In this document: piece after piece, positions 3,492-49,761 of the stretch | Numbering within the stretch: the first letter of the stretch is position 1 | Layout of the letters: each line of letters starts with the position of its first letter | NCBI GenBank assembly: GCA_001189495.1 | Contig: CP012068.1 | Span: forward strand, 310,001-374,000 | Source of the DNA: Eubacterium sulci ATCC 35585 | GTDB lineage: Bacteria > Bacillota > Clostridia > Peptostreptococcales > Anaerovoracaceae | Reading direction: 5' to 3' | Length of the DNA: 64,000 nt | Notes under the pieces: generated by a model | Told to the model about the DNA's origin: nothing | Databases searched by the model: none | What the model saw: the letters and a program-made list of their open reading frames with translations, nothing else | Translations under genes and position numbers: made by a program

Positions 3492-4892
3492 ATGGACAAT
3501 ATTGAAAAGAGAGGAAAGTTTAAGTCGAACTTCGGATTCCTTATGGCATCTATCGGCTCTGCCGTAGGTCTAGGTAATCTTTGGGGTTTTCCATATAAGA
3601 TGGGAAAAGGCGGCGGCTTTGCCTTTTTGCTCTTATATGTTGTCATGGTAGTTTGTATCGGATACTGCCTTATGATTGGAGAGTTTGCCATAGGCCGTAA
3701 ATCGCGAAAGGCTCCAGTAGGTGCATACAAGGCTATTAATAAGAAGTTTGCCTTCAATGGTTGGTTTGCAACACTTACACCGTTCTTCCTATTGCCGTTC
3801 TACACAGTGCTTGGTGGCTACTGTATCAAGTACCTTGTAGCTAACTTTGGTGATATTTTAGGTGTTTCATGGGGTGTAGGCGAAAGGGCAAGTGAGCAGT
3901 TTTTCGGACAATTCATTTCTAATACTACACAGTCAATAATATTTACGCTATTATTTATGCTCATGACATTCGTAATTGTAACAATGGGAATTGGCGGAGG
4001 TATCGAGAAGTTCTCGGTAGTGGCTATGCCAGCGCTTTTTGTAATGCTTATTGTCGTAGTTATTAGAAGCATTACGCTACCTGGAGCATCTGAAGGACTT
4101 GCCTTCATGTTCAAGCCTAATTTCGAGGTATTCAAGGGAACAGGCTGGATCAGTGTCCTAGCTTTAGCGGGGGGGCAGCTATTCTTTTCGCTTTCACTTG
4201 CAGCGGGATGCCAGATTGCTTACGGTTCATACCTTGATGACAAGGAAAATCTAGAGCGCAATGCTTTTATCGTTCCAGTTGCTGATATGCTTGCAGCTAT
4301 TCTAGCAGGTGTAGCAACTATCCCTGCGGTATTCGCATCTGGACTTCAGCCCGCACAGGGCCCAAGCATGCTATTTGTAACTCTTCAGATGGTATTCAAG
4401 TCAATGGGCGCAGCAGGACCATGGTTTGCAACAGCGTTCTATCTACTAGTGTTCCTTGCAGCACTTTCTAGCTCAATCGCTATGCTAGAAGGCGGAGTTG
4501 CATCTTTCATCGATATGAATATCGAAAAAGGCAAGGAGCCAGGAAGAGGAAAAATAACTGCTATAGTTTGTATCATTACATCATTAGGCGGACTACTAGT
4601 AGCAGCAGATGGACTTGGAACAGGTGGCCTTAAGCACCTATTTGGCTTTGAGACATGGCTAGAGACATTTGATCTATTCGGCGAAGGACTTTTGATGCCA
4701 CTTGGAGGATTTTTCATGGCCATATTCCTCGGATGGTGCTACCCAACATATATTGATGACGAAATACAGAAGGGTAGCAGTTATAAGAGCAAGAATTTCG
4801 TGCACATTTGCTTAAAGTACATAGCACCGGTATTCATGCTTTTCATTCTGCTCGGACAGATAGATTCATTCTTTAAACTAGGATTGTTTTAG
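3492..4892 (+). CDS. Neurotransmitter:sodium symporter (NSS/SNF) family transporter
   Basis: A 466-residue NSS-family (LeuT-fold) Na+-coupled transporter for amino acids or related amines. The hallmark of helix 1 is present near the N-terminus: FGFLMASIGSAVGLGNLWGFPY, with the unwound glycine-rich segment that binds sodium and substrate. About eleven to twelve hydrophobic helices follow, including GLAFMFKPNFEVFKGTGWISVLALAGGQLFFSL, typical of helices 6-7. The frame opens at ATG 3459, but GGAGGT (3481-3486) lies 5 bases before ATG 3492, which is the preferred start. The neighbour downstream is a close paralogue 29 bases away. The substrate cannot be read from sequence. Confidence 0.93.
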   Translation: MDNIEKRGKFKSNFGFLMASIGSAVGLGNLWGFPYKMGKGGGFAFLLLYVVMVVCIGYCLMIGEFAIGRKSRKAPVGAYKAINKKFAFNGWFATLTPFFLLPFYTVLGGYCIKYLVANFGDILGVSWGVGERASEQFFGQFISNTTQSIIFTLLFMLMTFVIVTMGIGGGIEKFSVVAMPALFVMLIVVVIRSITLPGASEGLAFMFKPNFEVFKGTGWISVLALAGGQLFFSLSLAAGCQIAYGSYLDDKENLERNAFIVPVADMLAAILAGVATIPAVFASGLQPAQGPSMLFVTLQMVFKSMGAAGPWFATAFYLLVFLAALSSSIAMLEGGVASFIDMNIEKGKEPGRGKITAIVCIITSLGGLLVAADGLGTGGLKHLFGFETWLETFDLFGEGLLMPLGGFFMAIFLGWCYPTYIDDEIQKGSSYKSKNFVHICLKYIAPVFMLFILLGQIDSFFKLGLF

Positions 4893-4921
4893 CAATAGAT
4901 GAAATATAGGAGAAATATCAC

Positions 4922-6340
4922 ATGGAGAATCAAAACGAAAAGGGACAGTGGGGCAGTAGGTTCGGCTTTCTAATGGCTGCGATAGGCTCTGCTGTTGGAC
5001 TAGGAAACCTTTGGAAGTTTCCTTATGTAATGGGTAAGGGTGGCGGATTTGCCTTCTTGTTCATATATCTAATAATGGTAGCATTAGTAGGTGTAGTAAT
5101 TTTGCTTTCAGAGCTAGCTCTCGGTAGAAAGACAGGTAAGGGCGTTATCGCAGCCTATAGAGGAATCAGCCAAAAGTACACTTTCATCGGATGGATGTCA
5201 TGGATTTCGCCAGTGCTAATCTTGGGCTTTTATTCGATGCTTGGAGGCTACTGCATCAAATATACAATAGCAAACATCGGTGACTTCTTTGGCGCTTCAT
5301 GGGGTGTAAATGGGGCTGATTCTGCAGCTTTCTTTAAGGGCTTTTACACAGACCCTGTTCAGACAGTTGCATTCACAGTAATATTCGTATTCCTGACAGT
5401 TTTAATCACAAGTGTAGGAGTATCCAAGGGAATAGAGAAATTCTCAGCTATAGCTATGCCAGCGCTCTTTGTAATGCTTTGCATAGTTATCGTAAGAAGT
5501 GTAACCCTACCAGGTGCATCTGAAGGACTTGCGTTTGTTTTTAAGCCTAACTTTGATGTATTCAAGGGAACAGGCTGGATAAGCGTGCTAGCTAGCGCTA
5601 GTGGACAGATGTTCTTCTCACTATCGCTTGGTATGGCTATCATGGTTACGTACGGTTCTTATATGAAGAAGAACGAGGATCTACAGGAGAATGCAGTTAT
5701 AATCCCTATCGCAGATACGCTAATTGCAGTGATGGCTGGTGTTGCAATCATGCCTGCAGTATTTGCTTCAGGTCAGGATCCAGCAGCTGGTCCTGGACTT
5801 CTATTTATCACACTTCAGACAGTGTTCTCAGCTATGGGTTCGCTCGGTCCGGTGTTTGGAACACTTTTTTATGGACTTGTATTCATAGCAGCAATAACTT
5901 CATCCATATCGCTCGTTGAAGCAGTAAGCTCAGCTATTATGGATAGAGCAATCGAGAAGAACAAACCAGTTAATAGAACTAAGATAAGCCTTGCAGTAGG
6001 TGTCTTCATAGCTCTAGAGGGAGCTCTTGTAGCAGTTGACTCGCTAGGAGAGAGTAGTCTTCCACATCCACTAGGACTTGGTTCCTTGCTTGACTTTTTT
6101 GATTTATTCTCAGAGGGTATATTTATGCCTATAGCGGCACTACTTACAGCTGTAATCTTTGGATGGATTAAGCCAGGCTGGCTCGATGCAGAAATCGAAA
6201 ATAAGGGAACGGACAATGAGAAGAAGTTTAAAATGAAGGGCTACTACCAGTTCTGTCTAAAATGGATAGTTCCACCGATCATGATTCTCGTGTTAGCCGG
6301 ACAGATGGACAGCTTCTTCGGCTTAAATTTGTTTAAATAA
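4922..6340 (+). CDS. Neurotransmitter:sodium symporter (NSS/SNF) family transporter, paralogue
   Basis: A 472-residue NSS-family symporter, strongly similar to the gene before it through the core (FGFLMAAIGSAVGLGNLWKFPYVMGKGGGFAF; GLAFVFKPNFDVFKGTGWISVLASASGQMFFSLS). It shares the same helix layout and a C-terminal ending in GQMDSFFGLNLFK. The two genes probably arose by tandem duplication and share one promoter; a terminator follows. Differences in helix 1 (K for G after LW) and helix 3 suggest diverged substrates, which is inference. AGGAG (4909-4913) precedes the ATG. Confidence 0.93.
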   Translation: MENQNEKGQWGSRFGFLMAAIGSAVGLGNLWKFPYVMGKGGGFAFLFIYLIMVALVGVVILLSELALGRKTGKGVIAAYRGISQKYTFIGWMSWISPVLILGFYSMLGGYCIKYTIANIGDFFGASWGVNGADSAAFFKGFYTDPVQTVAFTVIFVFLTVLITSVGVSKGIEKFSAIAMPALFVMLCIVIVRSVTLPGASEGLAFVFKPNFDVFKGTGWISVLASASGQMFFSLSLGMAIMVTYGSYMKKNEDLQENAVIIPIADTLIAVMAGVAIMPAVFASGQDPAAGPGLLFITLQTVFSAMGSLGPVFGTLFYGLVFIAAITSSISLVEAVSSAIMDRAIEKNKPVNRTKISLAVGVFIALEGALVAVDSLGESSLPHPLGLGSLLDFFDLFSEGIFMPIAALLTAVIFGWIKPGWLDAEIENKGTDNEKKFKMKGYYQFCLKWIVPPIMILVLAGQMDSFFGLNLFK

Positions 6341-21554: not shown

Positions 21555-22364
21555 ATGAGAGTATACATAAGTGCAGATATAGAAGGCGTTACAAATGTAA
21601 CTGACTGGACAGAGACAGAGAGAATTGGCGGAACTGGATACGAGTGGGCCTGCGAGCAGATGACTAGAGAGGTCTCAGCTGCCTGTCTTGGAGCGCTAGA
21701 AGCAGGAGCAGATGAAGTAGTTGTTAAGGACAGCCACGACAGTGCACTAAACCTAATTCCTGACAAGCTTCCAAGGGGGGTTAAGCTTATCCGCGGATGG
21801 GCGGCTTCGACAGACTCGATGATGGCTCTTGTGGATAGAGACTTCGACCTTGCTTTCATGGTCGGATACCACTCAGAGGGATATAGCAACAAGAACCCGT
21901 TAGCTCACACAATGACATATGCGAGACTAATGGCGACAAAGCTAAACGGCAAGCTTATATCAGAGATGGACAATAATGTTTTGATATGTGCAAACCATGG
22001 TGTTCCAATTGGACTAATTGCTGGGGACAAGGCCCTTTGCGATAAGGCAGAGGCAGAACTTCCTGGCGTTTGCGTGGCTGCAGTCAAAGAAGGAATTGGC
22101 GGAGCTACTTTCAGCCTTCATCCGCTAGATGCTTGTGATTTGATTAAGGCACAGGCATATGAGGCAGTTAAACGCCTGCAGAAGGGTGAAATTAAGTGCA
22201 TAGATATGCCTGAGCATTTTGAACTAGAGTTTATGTTCAAGGAGCACAAGGATGCTAGCAATGCAGCAAACTATATCGGAGCAGAGCTAGTAGATGCACA
22301 TACGGTGGTTTATAGGTGTGATAGCTTCAAGGAATACATTACAGCCTATGACTTCATGCACTAG
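21555..22364 (+). CDS. dppA: DppA-like M55-family D-aminopeptidase
   Basis: A 269-residue protein of peptidase family M55, zinc-dependent D-aminopeptidases such as Bacillus DppA that cleave D-Ala-containing dipeptides. The N-terminal metal motif ISADIEG supplies Asp8 and Glu10, followed by KDSHDS (His62), GYHSEG, and LAHTMT with the next histidine. Fold and length match the family. The ribosome-binding site AGGAGG lies 5 bases upstream. It heads a same-strand series with a P1 peptidase, a racemase and Dtd, all concerned with D-amino acids or unusual peptides. A likely role is salvage of D-residues from cell-wall turnover. The upstream promoter is not clear. Confidence 0.92.
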   Translation: MRVYISADIEGVTNVTDWTETERIGGTGYEWACEQMTREVSAACLGALEAGADEVVVKDSHDSALNLIPDKLPRGVKLIRGWAASTDSMMALVDRDFDLAFMVGYHSEGYSNKNPLAHTMTYARLMATKLNGKLISEMDNNVLICANHGVPIGLIAGDKALCDKAEAELPGVCVAAVKEGIGGATFSLHPLDACDLIKAQAYEAVKRLQKGEIKCIDMPEHFELEFMFKEHKDASNAANYIGAELVDAHTVVYRCDSFKEYITAYDFMH

Positions 22365-41171: not shown

Positions 41172-41693
41172 ATGAAAAACAAAACAGTACTATTCGTGAC
41201 AAAGGCTGCGATGATAGCTGCGGTGTATGTGGTTTTAACCATTGTGCTTGCCCCTATATCCTTTGGTCAGGTTCAGCTTAGGGTATCGGAAGCCCTAACA
41301 ATCATGCCGGTTTTTACAGCGGCAGCGATTCCTGGAGTATTCATCGGTTGCTTGATAGGTAACATCTTGGGAGGCGCAGTGCTTCCAGATATCATCTTCG
41401 GTAGCCTAGCTACGCTTGTAGCAGCAGTAATAAGCTATAAGCTTAGAGGCAAGGGGCTTTTGATAGCATCCATTCCACCAGTTGTGGTGAACATGCTAGT
41501 AGTGCCTTTTGTTTTAAAATATGCGTATTCTGTTCCGCTACCAATTCCGTTTATGATGCTCACAGTTGGTGCAGGTGAAGTAGTATCATGCTGCATCCTA
41601 GGCGTTGGACTTGGTAAGCTTCTTCAGAAGAATAAATTCATTTTGGGAGATGAGTCACTTGAGAGAAAACCAGAAGGAAATGAACAGGGCTGA
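41172..41693 (+). CDS. queT: QueT-family ECF S-component, queuosine precursor transporter
   Basis: A 173-residue membrane protein with about five to six helices, of the QueT family. These are S-components of group II ECF transporters predicted to import the queuosine precursor preQ1. The N-terminal segment TKAAMIAAVYVVLTIVLAPISFGQVQLRVSEALTIMP is the family signature. A preQ1-I riboswitch lies directly upstream and contains its ribosome-binding site. It needs a shared EcfT/EcfA module; whether it can use the one at 24.8-27.4 kb is unknown. A VanX-like gene follows immediately. Confidence 0.92.
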   Translation: MKNKTVLFVTKAAMIAAVYVVLTIVLAPISFGQVQLRVSEALTIMPVFTAAAIPGVFIGCLIGNILGGAVLPDIIFGSLATLVAAVISYKLRGKGLLIASIPPVVVNMLVVPFVLKYAYSVPLPIPFMMLTVGAGEVVSCCILGVGLGKLLQKNKFILGDESLERKPEGNEQG

Positions 41694-41694
41694 T

Positions 41695-42285
41695 ATGACT
41701 TTTAACAGCCCCAAAGAGGACTGTGATTCGGGCAATCTAGTTAAGCTTTTAGATGTAGACGATGACTTTATCATCGAGCTAAGATATGCCACAGAAGATA
41801 ATTTCACAGGCAAAAGAGTCTACGAATCGGCAGAGTGCTACATAGATAGAGAAACTCTAAAGATGCTCATAGAAGCAAGGGATGTATTCAAGAAAGACGG
41901 CTACCGTGTCAAAATTTGGGATGCCTACAGACCTATAAGTGCGCAGAAGCGCTTCTGGGAGATTTATCCTGACGATAATTTCGTGGCAAGACCTCCTGAT
42001 ATGGAGACTATGACTAGCTTCAGATCAACTCATATGAATGGGCAGTGCGTCGATATAACGCTTACCGACATGGAGGGAAACGAGCTTAAGATGCCGACAT
42101 GCTTTGATGATTTCAGAGAAATTGCGGCCCTAAAGAACAACGACCCAGAAACTGAAGAATATAAGAACGCTGCATATATGTGCAGGGTGATGGAATCTGC
42201 CGGTTTTGGCGCATCGCCTACAGAATGGTGGCATTTCTACGATAACAAAAATCCACATCCGAGATATCTTGACTACAGAATATAA
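41695..42285 (+). CDS. D-Ala-D-Ala dipeptidase, VanX/DdpX-like
   Basis: A zinc D,D-dipeptidase of the VanX/DdpX family (peptidase M15D), 196 residues from the chosen start. It cleaves D-Ala-D-Ala. Metal and catalytic residues are visible: STHMNGQCVDITLTD (His and Asp zinc ligands) and EWWHF (catalytic Glu and zinc His), with YDAYRP-like WDAYRPISAQ before them. No vanH or vanA gene is near, so a role in D-Ala-D-Ala salvage (like E. coli DdpX) is more likely than glycopeptide resistance. The start is uncertain: the frame opens at 41605 inside queT; 41695 lies just after the queT stop, and 41680 is an alternative. Confidence 0.88.
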   Translation: MTFNSPKEDCDSGNLVKLLDVDDDFIIELRYATEDNFTGKRVYESAECYIDRETLKMLIEARDVFKKDGYRVKIWDAYRPISAQKRFWEIYPDDNFVARPPDMETMTSFRSTHMNGQCVDITLTDMEGNELKMPTCFDDFREIAALKNNDPETEEYKNAAYMCRVMESAGFGASPTEWWHFYDNKNPHPRYLDYRI

Positions 42286-44766: not shown

Positions 44767-45492
44767 CTATATCAAAAGTTTAAATTCACGGCGACGGCTA
44801 TCTATGATGCCGTCGTTTTTCATTGCCTTTATTTCTCGCATCATTGCAGAGCGGTCGACTGCGATGTATTCTGCAAGCTCGGCTAGGCTCATCGGAATTT
44901 CGAAGAATTCATTGTTAGATTTATCTTTAAGCGAGGCTTTGAGGTCACGTACTTCCTTGGTCGATGTAGGAGGTTTAGCTTCTGAAACGACTCTATTTGC
45001 CATACGCGCATACTGAAGATAAGCAAGAAGCTTATTTCTGATGCTGCCCTGCTTAACTATAGAAAGATGAAAAGATAACTCCTGAGCTCTTTGGGCAGAC
45101 ATAACAAAGAGATTGCTGATTAGCTGGCTATGATGCTCACATAGCTTTTCACAAGGCGTTATTATATGCTTGTAATCTAAGTAAACAACTCTGCAATCTT
45201 CTTCTGCAGTAACCATGTACTCAAAATCCGAAAGTGGCAAGGAAAATGGCTCGCCAAATAAATCCCCGCTCTTATAGCGCTCAAGCACATAAAGGTCTCC
45301 GTACTCGTTGAGAAACTCAAGTCTTGCTTGACCTGATTTCACGATGGCTACTTGCCTTGGCTCTGCCTGAGAGCTTTGATACATCATGATTAACTCACCG
45401 CGCTTATAGTTTCTATATATAGGATTAAAGCATGGAAATATGCTTGCTAGGGATTTCTCCGAAATGTTATCGAGGATTTGTGTCTTGGCCAT
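44767..45492 (-). CDS. Crp/Fnr-family transcription regulator
   Basis: A 241-residue Crp/Fnr-family regulator. An N-terminal cyclic-nucleotide-binding-like beta barrel (about 10-125, with VKSGQARLEFLNEYGDLYVLERYKSGDLFGEP) is joined by a long helix to a C-terminal helix-turn-helix (PMSLAELAEYIAVDRSAMMREIKAMKNDGIID, about 200-232). It has no N-terminal cysteine cluster of the Fnr type, and only three scattered cysteines, so a classical iron-sulfur O2 sensor is unlikely. It is divergent from an acyl-CoA dehydrogenase/flavodiiron pair, which it may control. An effector cannot be predicted. Confidence 0.92.
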   Translation of the reverse strand: MAKTQILDNISEKSLASIFPCFNPIYRNYKRGELIMMYQSSQAEPRQVAIVKSGQARLEFLNEYGDLYVLERYKSGDLFGEPFSLPLSDFEYMVTAEEDCRVVYLDYKHIITPCEKLCEHHSQLISNLFVMSAQRAQELSFHLSIVKQGSIRNKLLAYLQYARMANRVVSEAKPPTSTKEVRDLKASLKDKSNNEFFEIPMSLAELAEYIAVDRSAMMREIKAMKNDGIIDSRRREFKLLI

Positions 45493-45530: not shown

Positions 45531-45559
45531 ATTATATTACAAAAAGTTGCAAATGTCAC
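45531..45559 (-). promoter_or_regulatory. Promoter of the Crp/Fnr gene
   Basis: On the - strand GTGACA (45554-45559), 17-base spacer, TATAAT (45531-45536). The opposite promoter of the acyl-CoA dehydrogenase gene is weak (possible -10 TACAAT near 45584-45589, no clear -35), which would suit activation by a regulator. Confidence 0.6.
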
Positions 45560-45628
45560 TACTGACTAAAAATAAATTGGGTACAATAAGAATTAAGGTA
45601 AATGTTTTAGAGCAAGGAGGTAATTAAC

Positions 45629-47551
45629 ATGCTTTTTAAGACAACTGAAGCTCATGAAGAGTTTAGAGCTAAAATTAGAAAATTTGCAGAGGAAGAAGTA
45701 AAGCCTATTGCATTCATGCTAGATCAGAAAAATGAATTTCCGCACGACATCGTAAAGAAAATGGCGAAACTTGGAATTATGGGAACACCATATCCAAAGA
45801 AGTACGGCGGAGCAGGACTTGACGCAATAAGCTATGCGATTGCAGTTGAGGAACTTTCAAGGGTTGACGGTGGTACAGGTGTAATTCTATCAGCACACGT
45901 TTCACTAGGTTCATATCCTATCTTTGCATATGGTACAGAGGAACAGAAGCAGAAGTATCTAGTTCCACTAGCAAAGGGTGAGAAGCTTGGTGCTTTCGGT
46001 CTTACAGAGCCTAACGCAGGATCAGATGCAAGTGGAACAGAGACAACAGCCGAGCTAAAGGGAGACTACTACCTACTAAACGGTAACAAAATCTTTATCA
46101 CAAACGCTCCAATTGCAGACACATATGTTGTATTTGCGGTTACTACACCAAACATCGGAGCAAAGGGTATCAGCGCATTCATAGTAGAGAAGGGCTGGGA
46201 AGGCTTTGAGTTCGGTGACCACTACGACAAGATGGGTATCAGATCATCATCAACAGCTGAGCTCATCTTCAACGATGTAAAGGTTCCAAAGGAAAACCTA
46301 CTAGGTAAGGAAGGTCAGGGATTCAAGATTGCGCTTTCAACACTAGATGGTGGAAGAATCGGTATCGCTTCACAGGCGCTAGGTATTGCACAGGGCGCTT
46401 ACGAGGCTGCTGTAGAGTATGCGCTTGAGAGAATCCAGTTCGGTATTCCAATCGCACACCAGCAGATTAACTCATTCAAGATTGCTGACATGGCTACAAA
46501 GCTAAGAATGTCAAGATTCCTTATCTACTCAGCAGCTGAGCTAAAGGAACACCACGAGCCATTCGGAATGGAATCAGCTATGGCTAAGCAGTATGCTTCA
46601 GACGCAGCACTTGAGATTTGTAACGATTCACTTCAGATCTTTGGTGGTACAGGATACCTCAAGGGTATGGAAGTTGAGAGAGCTTACAGAGATGCTAAAA
46701 TTACAACTATCTATGAAGGAACAAACGAAATTCAGAGAGTCGTAATTGCAGCACATATCCTAGGTAAGGCACCACAGCAGGCGGCACCAGCAGCTCAGAA
46801 GGGCCCTATCACAGGACAGAGAAAGAAGATTATGTTCTCAGGAAGTGCTCAGGAACAGGTAGATCAGCTTGTTTCAGCACTTAAGTCAGACGGATTTGAC
46901 TTCACAGTAGGTATCGATCCTAATACACCAATCGTTGATGCAGACAGAGTAGTATCAGCAGGTAAGGGTATCGGAGAAAAGAAGAATATGAAGCTTATTG
47001 AGGATCTTGCTAAGCAGGCAGGAGCAGCAATAGGTTCATCAAGACCAGTAGCTGAGACACTTAAGTATGTTCCACTAGATAGATACGTAGGTATGTCAGG
47101 ACAGAAGTTCTCAGGAAACCTATACATCGCTTGTGGTATCTCAGGAGCTGGACAGCACCTAAAGGGAATTAAGGAAGCTACAACAATCGTAGCAATCAAT
47201 AAGAGCAAGAATGCACCTATCTTCAAGAACGCTGACTACGGAATCGTAGGAGATGTAATGGAGATTCTGCCACTACTCACAAAGGCACTAGATAATGGCG
47301 AGGAGAAGAAGCCAGCGCCACCACGTGTTAAGATGAGAAAGGCAACAGTACTCAAGGAGCCTTCACCATGGGATCTATATGTTTGTAAGGGATGTGGATA
47401 TGAATACGACCCGGCAAAGGGAGACGAAGAAGGTGGAGTAAGCATAGGAACAACATTTGAATCACTACCAGAAGAGTGGATTTGCCCACTTTGCGGAGAA
47501 GAGAAGACAGGCTTTATCAAAGTAGAAAAGCCTAAGAAGGAGGAAAAATAA
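45629..47551 (+). CDS. Acyl-CoA dehydrogenase fused to EtfA C-domain and rubredoxin
   Basis: A three-part fusion of 640 residues. Part 1 (about 1-378) is an acyl-CoA dehydrogenase with [17 protein letters not shown] and the short-chain-type catalytic glutamate region YEGTNEIQR. Part 2 (about 397-555) is the FAD-binding C-domain of electron-transfer flavoprotein alpha, with [41 protein letters not shown]. Part 3 (about 583-632) is rubredoxin with [10 protein letters not shown] and CPLCG binding one iron. Electrons from acyl-CoA could flow from FAD to FAD to iron in one chain. The stop overlaps the start of the flavodiiron gene (TAATG), the natural rubredoxin partner. AAGGAGG precedes the ATG. 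Codons are strongly biased (TTC, AAC, CTA), suggesting high expression. Confidence 0.95.
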
Positions 47552-48759
47552 TGCATTGTGTTAGAAAAGTAACCGAAGATCTATTTTGGGTCGGTGGAAA
47601 TGACAAAAGGCTTCACCTCTTTGAAAACATTCATCCTATCGAAGATGGAGTCTCATATAACTCATATCTATTGCTAGATGAAAAGACAGTTCTTTTTGAT
47701 ACAGCAGACTGGTCAGTAGGACGTCAGTTTATCGAAAATGTAGAGTATGTTCTTAACGGAAGAAAGCTCGACTACATGGTAATCAACCACATGGAGCCAG
47801 ATCACTGTGCATCAATGGAAGAGATTATTCTCAGATATCCAGATGTAAAGATTGTATCAACAGAGAAGGCGCTAATGCTAATGCACCAGTTTAACTACAC
47901 AGTTGACGAGAACTTCATTCAGGTTGCTGAGGGAGATACAATGAGCTTTGGTAAGCATAATGTTGTCTTCGTAGAGGCACCTATGGTTCACTGGCCAGAG
48001 GCAATGGTAACCTTTGATACAACAGACGGAGTGCTTTTCAGTGCAGACGCATTCGGTTCATTTAAGTCACTTGACGGCGCACTATTTGCTGACGAAGTTG
48101 ACTTTGATGGAGAGTGGATTAACGAAGCAAGACGCTACTACACAAACATTGTAGGTAAGTACGGACCAGAGGTTATGGATCTTCTAAAGAAGGCGCAGAC
48201 AATCGATATCAAGATTATCTGCCCACTTCACGGACCAGTATGGCGTAAGGACATCGGATACATTCTAGACAAGTACATCCACTGGGCTACATACACACCA
48301 GAGGAGAAGGGCGTGCTACTATGCTACGCTTCAATGTACGGAAATACAGAGAATGCAGCTCACATCCTAGCTACAAAGCTACACGAAAAAGGAATGCATA
48401 ACGTGCACATGTACGATGTATCAAAGACACACGTATCATACCTAATCGGAGAGGCTTTCAAGTACAGCCACCTAGCGCTTCTTTCAGTAACATATAACCT
48501 AAACGTATTCCCAGCAATGGAGAACTTCGTTCAGGACATGAAGAGACTTAACTTGCAGAAGAGAGTAGTTGCAGTAGTTGAGAACGGTTCATGGGCTCCA
48601 CAGGCAAGCGTTTTGATCAACGAAACACTTGACGAGATGAAGCAGATGACAGTTCTAAACGAAGAAGTTTCTGTACTATCATCAGTATCAAAGATGACAG
48701 AAAGCGAGCTAGATTCACTAGCAGATAGCATCATCGAATCGATGTCACAGAGCTACTAA
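47551..48759 (+). CDS. fprA: Flavodiiron protein (FprA, rubredoxin:oxygen/NO reductase)
   Basis: An A-type flavoprotein of 402 residues that reduces O2 to water and/or NO to N2O. The N-terminal metallo-beta-lactamase-like domain has the diiron ligands: HMEPDH (about 79-84), MVHWPEAM, SADAFG and CPLHGPVW. The C-terminal flavodoxin domain starts at about 255 with LCYASMYGNTENAA as FMN phosphate loop. In anaerobes the electrons normally come from rubredoxin; here a rubredoxin domain sits at the end of the upstream, translationally coupled protein. The strongly biased codon use matches that of the partner. A 15-bp terminator follows. Confidence 0.96.
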   Translation: MHCVRKVTEDLFWVGGNDKRLHLFENIHPIEDGVSYNSYLLLDEKTVLFDTADWSVGRQFIENVEYVLNGRKLDYMVINHMEPDHCASMEEIILRYPDVKIVSTEKALMLMHQFNYTVDENFIQVAEGDTMSFGKHNVVFVEAPMVHWPEAMVTFDTTDGVLFSADAFGSFKSLDGALFADEVDFDGEWINEARRYYTNIVGKYGPEVMDLLKKAQTIDIKIICPLHGPVWRKDIGYILDKYIHWATYTPEEKGVLLCYASMYGNTENAAHILATKLHEKGMHNVHMYDVSKTHVSYLIGEAFKYSHLALLSVTYNLNVFPAMENFVQDMKRLNLQKRVVAVVENGSWAPQASVLINETLDEMKQMTVLNEEVSVLSSVSKMTESELDSLADSIIESMSQSY

Positions 48760-48825: not shown

Positions 48826-48863
48826 GCGGCATAATTCTAATCTTAGAGTTATGCCGCGTTTTT
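48826..48863 (+). terminator. Terminator after fprA
   Basis: Fifteen pairs: GCGGCATAATTCTAA (48826-48840) with TTAGAGTTATGCCGC (48843-48857), then GTTTTT. Confidence 0.93.
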
Positions 48864-48918: not shown

Positions 48919-49761
48919 ATGAAAAATAGCAAGAAAAATAGCAAGATGATTGCAGGCTTAGTCCTGTCGTTGCTCATAGCCAGCTTAAGCTTTTTTAAAG
49001 CTGATTTACCGCAGCCGCTGAGAGAATATCTCGGCATGGAGCCATCAGGCAGGGAAAGCATACATAGACGCGTAAATGCGAAAGTTAATCCAGCGAAGCC
49101 TGGCGAGCTTCCCGATGGACTCAAAGTAGCTAATAGCAAGCAGATAAGGAGCAAAGGGAAAAAGCTAGTAGCAAGCGATGTCATACATACATTTCCAAAT
49201 AATGCAGAGTATAGCTTTGCCGTAGTGAATGATAATATGCCGAGCTTCACTGAGGAGGAACTTTCAAGCCCCGAATTTGAAAGCTATGGAGAATTAGACC
49301 ACCTAGGGAGATGTAGACCAGCTACGGCTATGCTAGGGAAGAATCTTATGCCGACCGAAAAGAGAGGCAGCATAGGTATGATAAAGCCTAGCGGCTGGCA
49401 TACCAAGAGATATGATAAACTCATCGCAGATAAGTACCTTTACAATCGTTGCCATTTGATTGGGTATCAACTTAGCGGAGAGAATGCAAATAGAAAGAAC
49501 CTGATAACGGGAACAAGATATCTAAATGTTGAGGGAATGCTTCCTTTTGAGGATATGGTAGCAAACTATATCAAAGCTACAGACCATCACGTGCTTTACA
49601 GAGTAAGGCCTATCTTCTACAAGAAGGACCTTGTAGCTAGAGGAGTGCAGATGGAGGCTCAGTCGGTAGAGGACGATGAGATTAGCTTTAATGTATTTAT
49701 ATATAATGTACAGCCAGACATTGAGATAAACTATAAGAACGGAAATAGTAAGAAGAAGTAG
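48919..49761 (+). CDS. Exported DNA/RNA non-specific endonuclease
   Basis: A 280-residue protein of the EndA/NucA-like non-specific nuclease family. An N-terminal hydrophobic segment (about 9-27) acts as signal or membrane anchor. The betabetaalpha-metal nuclease motif is LYNRCHLIGYQLSGENANRKNLITGTRYLNVEGM, with the catalytic histidine (NRCH in place of the usual DRGH) and the metal-binding asparagine. Relatives degrade DNA for nutrition or uptake. The start has no ribosome-binding site within reach and appears leaderless; ATG 48946 is an alternative but would cut off most of the signal segment. It is followed by proB after 6 bases, an odd pairing. Confidence 0.87.
   Translation: MKNSKKNSKMIAGLVLSLLIASLSFFKADLPQPLREYLGMEPSGRESIHRRVNAKVNPAKPGELPDGLKVANSKQIRSKGKKLVASDVIHTFPNNAEYSFAVVNDNMPSFTEEELSSPEFESYGELDHLGRCRPATAMLGKNLMPTEKRGSIGMIKPSGWHTKRYDKLIADKYLYNRCHLIGYQLSGENANRKNLITGTRYLNVEGMLPFEDMVANYIKATDHHVLYRVRPIFYKKDLVARGVQMEAQSVEDDEISFNVFIYNVQPDIEINYKNGNSKKK

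Follow-up and report, generated by a model that had tools for sequence, protein, structure and literature searches.

The window analysed here, a 64,000-nucleotide stretch of the Eubacterium sulci ATCC 35585 genome, carries a gene for a three-domain acyl-CoA dehydrogenase fusion followed by a gene for a flavodiiron protein (FDP), and by analogy with a characterised pair from Fusobacterium nucleatum the two very probably make up an enzyme of the butyryl-CoA oxygen oxidoreductase (BOOR) type, an acyl-CoA:O2 oxidoreductase (Table 1). Enzymes of this kind are already published and are here extended to another lineage, such that the mechanism put forward in a preliminary description of this DNA, made from the sequence alone, is right but not new. 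The part that may be new is the regulator gene beside the BOOR genes, with its own conserved promoter operator. Comparisons of upstream regions lean towards a model in which the divergent Crp/Fnr-type protein is an activator of the two genes that binds the 14-bp operator GTTGCAWWTGYMAC, centred near -41.5, and is perhaps an Fe-S redox sensor akin to FNR that keeps BOOR on.

Table 1 Features of the locus, with positions in the window and the basis of each assignment
Feature	Position	Strand	Basis
Crp/Fnr-type regulator, divergent from BCR	44767..45492	-	Pfam cNMP_binding and HTH_Crp_2
Candidate regulator promoter, GTGACA-17-TATAAT (11/12), -35 box overlapping the operator	45531..45559	-	Consensus scan
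Candidate operator GTTGCAAATGTCAC; family palindrome GTTGCAWWTGCAAC	45546..45559	+	Upstream comparison and pattern scans
Candidate -10 box TACAAT of the BCR promoter	45582..45587	+	22 nt past the operator; position inferred from sequence
BCR-type fusion	45629..47551	+	Pfam, 21-row alignment, AlphaFold2, PDB fold match
Class A flavodiiron protein (FDP), predicted O2 reductase subunit	47551..48759	+	Pfam, solved-chain matches, ligand residues
Terminator-like hairpin followed by a T-run, after the FDP gene	48826..48857	+	Consensus scan, 14-pair stem

The fusion is a single chain of 640 residues in which, as had been read from the sequence, a short-chain acyl-CoA dehydrogenase, the C-terminal FAD domain of EtfA and a rubredoxin follow one another. 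Pfam matches above the curated cut-offs place Acyl-CoA_dh_N/M/1 at residues 6-378, ETF_alpha (the FAD domain) at 435-515 and Rubredoxin at 584-629, with linkers separating the dehydrogenase from the EtfA domain and the EtfA domain from the rubredoxin. PF01012, which covers EtfB and the EtfA N-domain, is absent from the Pfam matches of the chain, in agreement with the earlier reading that only the EtfA C-domain is present; the accompanying statement that EtfB is missing holds for the fusion chain and fails for the genome, which has a separate Bcd-EtfB-EtfA set elsewhere. In an alignment of 21 fusions (the window and 20 of the 22 full-length loci from named genomes; L042 and L047, with a split fusion frame, were excluded), the rubredoxin residues C586, C589, C619 and C622, E363 of the EGTNEIQR motif, and R472, S490 and H510 of the EtfA motif are invariant. 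E363 is taken here to be the catalytic glutamate, R472/S490/H510 the EtfA FAD-site motif and the four cysteines the rubredoxin set, and the invariance of these residues across the 21 fusions argues that the fusion is not a product of chance.

An AlphaFold2 model of the fusion, built from the 21-row alignment, had a mean pLDDT of 81.8 and a pTM of 0.66, with pLDDT <50 in both linkers (383-396 and 573-578), two dehydrogenase loops and the chain ends. The top PDB fold match was 5ol2_C (60% identity), and the best 50 of the 907 fold matches held nothing but dehydrogenases. The fusion shares the dehydrogenase fold with the Etf/butyryl-CoA dehydrogenase complex of C. difficile (5ol2), but it lacks the EtfA N-domain and EtfB and has an added rubredoxin; presumably, a chain without the EtfA N-domain and EtfB has no NADH site and does not bifurcate.

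The next gene had been described as encoding a flavodiiron protein behind a TAATG overlap, and the present analysis recovered the same arrangement. The stop codon of the fusion and the start codon of the FDP share one base within TAATG, both genes are co-oriented, and the FDP consists of ODP (the diiron domain) and Flavodoxin_1, with no Pfam match to a rubredoxin domain. Its best solved chains were flavorubredoxin and the nitric oxide reductase FDP 1ycf, followed by the rubredoxin:oxygen oxidoreductase 1e5d. The pattern H80/E82/D84/H85, H147, D166 and H227, presumably the diiron ligands, is invariant in an alignment of 15 FDPs, comprising the window, 13 of the 20 named neighbours (seven named FDPs were left out) and the second FDP of the same genome. 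This second FDP stands alone (L126, 4194-5387) and is 29% identical to the window FDP. The hairpin after the FDP gene likely marks the end of the two-gene unit; the terminator scan returned 4 sites against a shuffle mean of 2.8. Just downstream of the unit lies a gene (48919-49761) that, in our reading, resembles a secreted DNA/RNA non-specific endonuclease, and a gene at 41605-42285 is similarly taken to resemble a VanX-type D-Ala-D-Ala dipeptidase. A PADLOC search with the fusion and FDP pair gave no match.

BOOR was described as FN1424-FN1423 of F. nucleatum by Bystrom and Wolthers in 2024 (via the excerpted text of a 2025 review, PMC12288474), and FN1423-FN1424 carries the same name in the excerpted text of a 2025 JBC paper (PMC12630350). 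As far as these excerpts go, the enzyme is an alpha4beta4 complex with butyryl-CoA-dependent reduction of O2 to water; the fusion and FDP form one complex, and the acyl-CoA:O2 oxidoreductase activity of the pair was demonstrated biochemically (PMC12288474), which lends support to the same activity having been proposed for the window pair. The window fusion is 72-73% identical to two Fusobacterium fusions (L034 and L041), which stood in for FN1424-FN1423 in the comparison. Common to the window and F. nucleatum are the three-domain fusion, the adjacent FDP, the bicistronic arrangement and a genome also holding Bcd-Etf and Rnf, while the window organism is not a Fusobacterium and its pair is preceded by a divergent Crp/Fnr-type gene that has an operator of its own. 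In the reaction proposed for this anaerobe, the dehydrogenase domain would oxidise a short acyl-CoA, butyryl-CoA or one like it, to crotonyl-CoA (the chain length is not fixed by the sequence), electrons would pass from the FAD of the dehydrogenase to the FAD of the EtfA domain, to the rubredoxin domain and on to the FMN and diiron centre of the FDP, and the FDP would reduce O2 to water.

The metabolic setting is compatible with such a reaction being part of a cycle. In the genome (1.74 Mb, one contig) a second dehydrogenase adjoins EtfB and EtfA, and the EtfB scored 339 bits against the EtfB of 6fah, 282 bits against 5ol2 and 97.5 bits against human ETF 1efv, where 6fah and 5ol2 are complexes named electron-bifurcating or Etf/Bcd. 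There is also one RnfC above the cut-off, one Hbd and one crotonase (Crt). With Bcd-EtfBA, Rnf, Hbd and Crt all present, the window organism can make butyryl-CoA, and the published cycle of BOOR, Bcd-Etf and Rnf, put forward for F. nucleatum, is possible in it. Crotonyl-CoA would be re-reduced by the Bcd-EtfBA of the genome, and O2 removal would thereby be tied to bifurcation and Rnf. The strongly biased codon use that had been noted for the pair was reproduced among 97 mechanically called ORFs (minimum length 120 aa) taken from the window plus four further stretches, with 20 ribosomal-protein genes of the same genome as the reference: the fusion ranks 4th and the FDP 8th in codon adaptation, with Hbd, EtfA and EtfB in ranks 1-3, the second FDP 7th and Bcd 9th.

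A search for the same domain order, which the preliminary description had suggested, recovered the whole fusion at 22 loci (L026-L047) among the best 80 matches in named genomes, with labels from the Bacillota, Fusobacteriota, Synergistota and Spirochaetota and one oddly labelled MAG. An FDP adjoins the fusion in 20 of these 22 loci, the exceptions being L038, at a contig end, and L040. The fusion of the latter (Allobaculum mucilyticum, 4001-5872) has diverged to 63% identity, and its linker between the EtfA and rubredoxin domains is shorter. L042 and L047 each have the dehydrogenase frame broken into two ORFs, reflecting either decay or a sequencing error, and L048, where the contig ends within the fusion, was kept outside the 22 loci and inside the upstream scan. 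In a class sample of 391 genomes, the fused EtfA-rubredoxin part (E 1e-60 or better) was present in 30, and at 30 of 30 loci it was preceded by the dehydrogenase domain and followed by an FDP, which shows how regularly the fusion and FDP co-occur.

A fusion tree of 29 rows (L042 and L047 excluded) groups the window fusion and its twin L004 with L026 and two Fusobacteriaceae MAGs, the same-genus L006, L007, L008 and L010 with two Oscillospiraceae, and the same-genus L009 with two loci of the Rrf2 type (see below). The fusion takes three tree positions within one genus, with the divergent regulator and the operator in two of the three. This one tree suggests that the fusion has been exchanged horizontally, and it is possible that the enzyme genes were exchanged under a retained promoter within the genus.

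Other functions for the pair are considerably less probable than a BOOR-type enzyme. The pair could chiefly be an acyl-CoA-fed NO reductase under an NO-responsive, HcpR-like Crp/Fnr regulator, as the top solved FDP chains, flavorubredoxin and 1ycf, are both nitric oxide reductases, and HcpR-type members of the Crp/Fnr family are predicted regulators of clostridial NO defence in the accessible part of PMC1274295. Against this, the F. nucleatum complex is reported to have no NO reductase activity in the excerpts of PMC12288474, and the operator GTTGCnnnnGCAAC departs from the HcpR2 consensus GTAACnnnnGTTAC, although C. difficile and C. thermocellum are stated to have other motifs (PMC1274295, same part); NO reduction is improbable as the main function on these grounds, and the preliminary description's alternative of NO in place of O2 is disfavoured by the reported lack of NO reductase activity in F. 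nucleatum. It is more improbable still that the fusion runs in reverse or in isolation, with reduced rubredoxin driving crotonyl-CoA reduction and the FDP a mere neighbour. Such a role would fit the best NCBIfam match of the fusion, acryloyl-CoA reductase (465 bits, under its cut-off of 640), and the Allobaculum fusion of L040, which has no FDP in the fetched flank, but the FDP adjoins the fusion in every one of the 30 class loci, Bcd-EtfBA is already in the genome for crotonyl-CoA reduction, and the F. nucleatum pair forms a single complex according to the review excerpts (PMC12288474).

The operator upstream of the BOOR genes was derived by reading eight divergent intergenic regions, so partly from loci that were also counted, and the counts are descriptive, while tests on the class sample and on distant homologues are more independent of its derivation. 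The exact pattern has one match in the window, at the site in Table 1. Allowing one mismatch raises the number to 3 (one place counts twice, being read on both strands) against 0.33 expected, and the one-mismatch site at 21588 (GTTACAAATGTAAC) was dropped, being inside a coding ORF. Across the five genus genomes the exact pattern matched nine times, six in BOOR upstream regions and three inside coding ORFs (one each in G000, G008 and G009), and a control with the pattern read backwards matched three times in G008 and not at all in the remaining four genomes. The perfect palindrome did not occur in genomes G000 and G005. A genome-wide regulon in the window organism was rejected, with the exact pattern found at the BOOR promoter and one intra-ORF site only; for a more degenerate pattern about 13 chance matches were estimated by hand. 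All eight 400-nt upstream regions with a divergent Crp gene contain the operator (six exactly, L007 with one mismatch and L046 with two), compared to one of the 24 regions of the same length without a divergent Crp gene (L026, two mismatches).

In the class sample, a close Crp orthologue (E at most 4e-47) is present in 4 of the 391 genomes and the exact operator precedes BCR in those same four, of which G283 and G380 are new. None of the remaining 26 BCR loci in the sample had the exact operator in the approximately 280-315 nt scanned upstream, and the two one-mismatch matches among them (L153 and L157) fall inside the FDP gene. In G283 the operator lies before BCR and the regulator gene is on a different contig, with no operator found near the regulator gene itself (L130), such that linkage alone does not explain the operator.

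A -10-like hexamer (at least 4/6 matches, with A2 and T6) was found exactly 22 nt past the operator in 10/10 operator-bearing BOOR promoters, though these include close relatives (the window and L004; L006, L007, L008 and L010) and represent about five independent lineages, and the spacing was first spotted by eye on the same sequences later counted. Such a hexamer occurs at 21 or 23 nt in 0/10 promoters and over the other 25 spacings in 25/250. At the four loci with tandem operators the promoter-proximal copy was used, which is imperfect in L007 and L010. When the -10 box is taken as -12 to -7, the operator centre falls at -41.5, which is where CRP and FNR bind as class II activators, and this position together with the fixed 22-nt spacing fits class II activation.

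The earlier suggestion that the divergent Crp/Fnr gene may regulate the pair gains support from the co-occurrence of the candidate operator with the regulator. Binding of the regulator to this site would switch on bcr-fdp transcription, and, if the protein is an FNR-like redox sensor, BOOR would be kept on as a standing defence. There is a smaller but appreciable chance that the Crp/Fnr gene is only a neighbour, or a repressor and not an activator. The operator shares bases with the -35 box of the candidate promoter that would serve the regulator gene itself (from a consensus scan that overall returned 7 sites against a shuffle mean of 8.9), and autoregulation alone could preserve it there; a neighbour or repressor is, however, harder to reconcile with G283, where the operator stands before BCR and away from the regulator gene, and with the constant distance to the -10 box in all ten promoters.

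Activation by a Crp/Fnr-type protein would set the window locus apart from BOOR loci with an upstream Rrf2 regulator. In the accessible text of a 2026 preprint (PMC13404960), the BOOR pair of gut Clostridia lies beside an Rrf2-family regulator. The enzyme pair and a putative redox-responsive regulator next door are shared with the window, where an unrelated Crp/Fnr-type protein replaces Rrf2 and the operator is in an activator position. Upstream of the 22 named fusion loci (from the best 80 matches) there is an Rrf2 homologue at eight, a divergent Crp gene at two, a weak co-oriented Crp homologue at one (L036, with no operator) and neither in the fetched flank at 11; Rrf2 was confirmed by Pfam in three of three homologues checked. 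No published link of a Crp/Fnr-type gene to BOOR was found at the title and abstract level among the matches listed, which is weak evidence of absence, and neither Crp nor Rrf2 appears as a whole word in the review (PMC12288474). If the control model is true, two unrelated regulators wire one O2-removing enzyme, Rrf2 in many gut Clostridia and a Crp/Fnr-type activator here, and one could then test directly when butyrate formers divert butyryl-CoA to oxygen removal.

The canonical FNR [4Fe-4S] O2 sensor has an N-terminal three-Cys cluster and one distal Cys. The window regulator has one N-terminal Cys (C21) followed by C100, C114 and C118, and was rejected as a canonical FNR. With the HcpR/FNR regulators it shares the Crp/Fnr domains and a 5-4-5 inverted-repeat operator, but the half-site is GTTGC in the window versus GTAAC, and the Cys set is not that of canonical FNR. 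It was also rejected as an HcpR2, as the window site GTTGCAAATGTCAC differs from the operator consensus GTAACnnnnGTTAC given in the accessible part of PMC1274295. Among 19 aligned Crp-type proteins, C21, C114, C118 and H121 (C114-x3-C118-x2-H121) are common to 17, the exceptions being L036, with a Cys at H121, and L169, which lacks all four residues. C100 occurs in 14 of the 19 and its absence from five counts against an Fe-S sensor, which is further weakened by the cysteine-less L169 occurring beside a perfect palindrome. AlphaFold modelled the regulator poorly, and an Fe-S site is proposed from the conserved residues with low to moderate confidence.

Seven distant Crp homologues (28-39% identity, E at most 1e-20), all in genomes without the fusion, place the operator in a second setting. 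The operator is found by the homologue's own gene exactly in five of the seven and with one mismatch in L133, and is absent in L138. In a shuffle check of upstream stretches of ~300 nt it was present in four of the seven and in none of 300 shuffles of each; L135 was missed by this check as the stretch stopped at its called start. At four of the seven (L132, L133, L134 and L136) the divergent gene encodes NrdD, the anaerobic ribonucleotide reductase, and the palindrome sits between the regulator relative and nrdD (with one mismatch in L133), while a second palindrome in G356, one of the genomes concerned, precedes a PFL-like gene (L174). The 22-nt spacing is present at L136-NrdD and L174-PFL-like and absent at L132, L133 and L134. 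As NrdD and PFL are oxygen-labile glycyl-radical enzymes, the favoured sign is a regulator that would be active without oxygen and keep BOOR on in advance, though the sign may be the opposite.

A broader and more doubtful reading is that the regulator represents an undescribed class of FNR-like Fe-S redox sensor (one N-terminal Cys and C-x3-C-x2-H), acting as a class II activator at GTTGCAWWTGCAAC. In clostridia and some Fusobacteriaceae it would then link oxygen status to BOOR in some cases and to glycyl-radical enzymes (NrdD, PFL-like) in others, and one sensor family would run oxygen-labile enzymes and an oxygen-removing machine alike. A gene pair similar to that of L138, which lacks the palindrome, occurs at L169 (829-2300), where a perfect palindrome, GTTGCAAATGCAAC, separates the Crp-type gene without the conserved cysteines from the divergent gene for a ferredoxin-domain protein.
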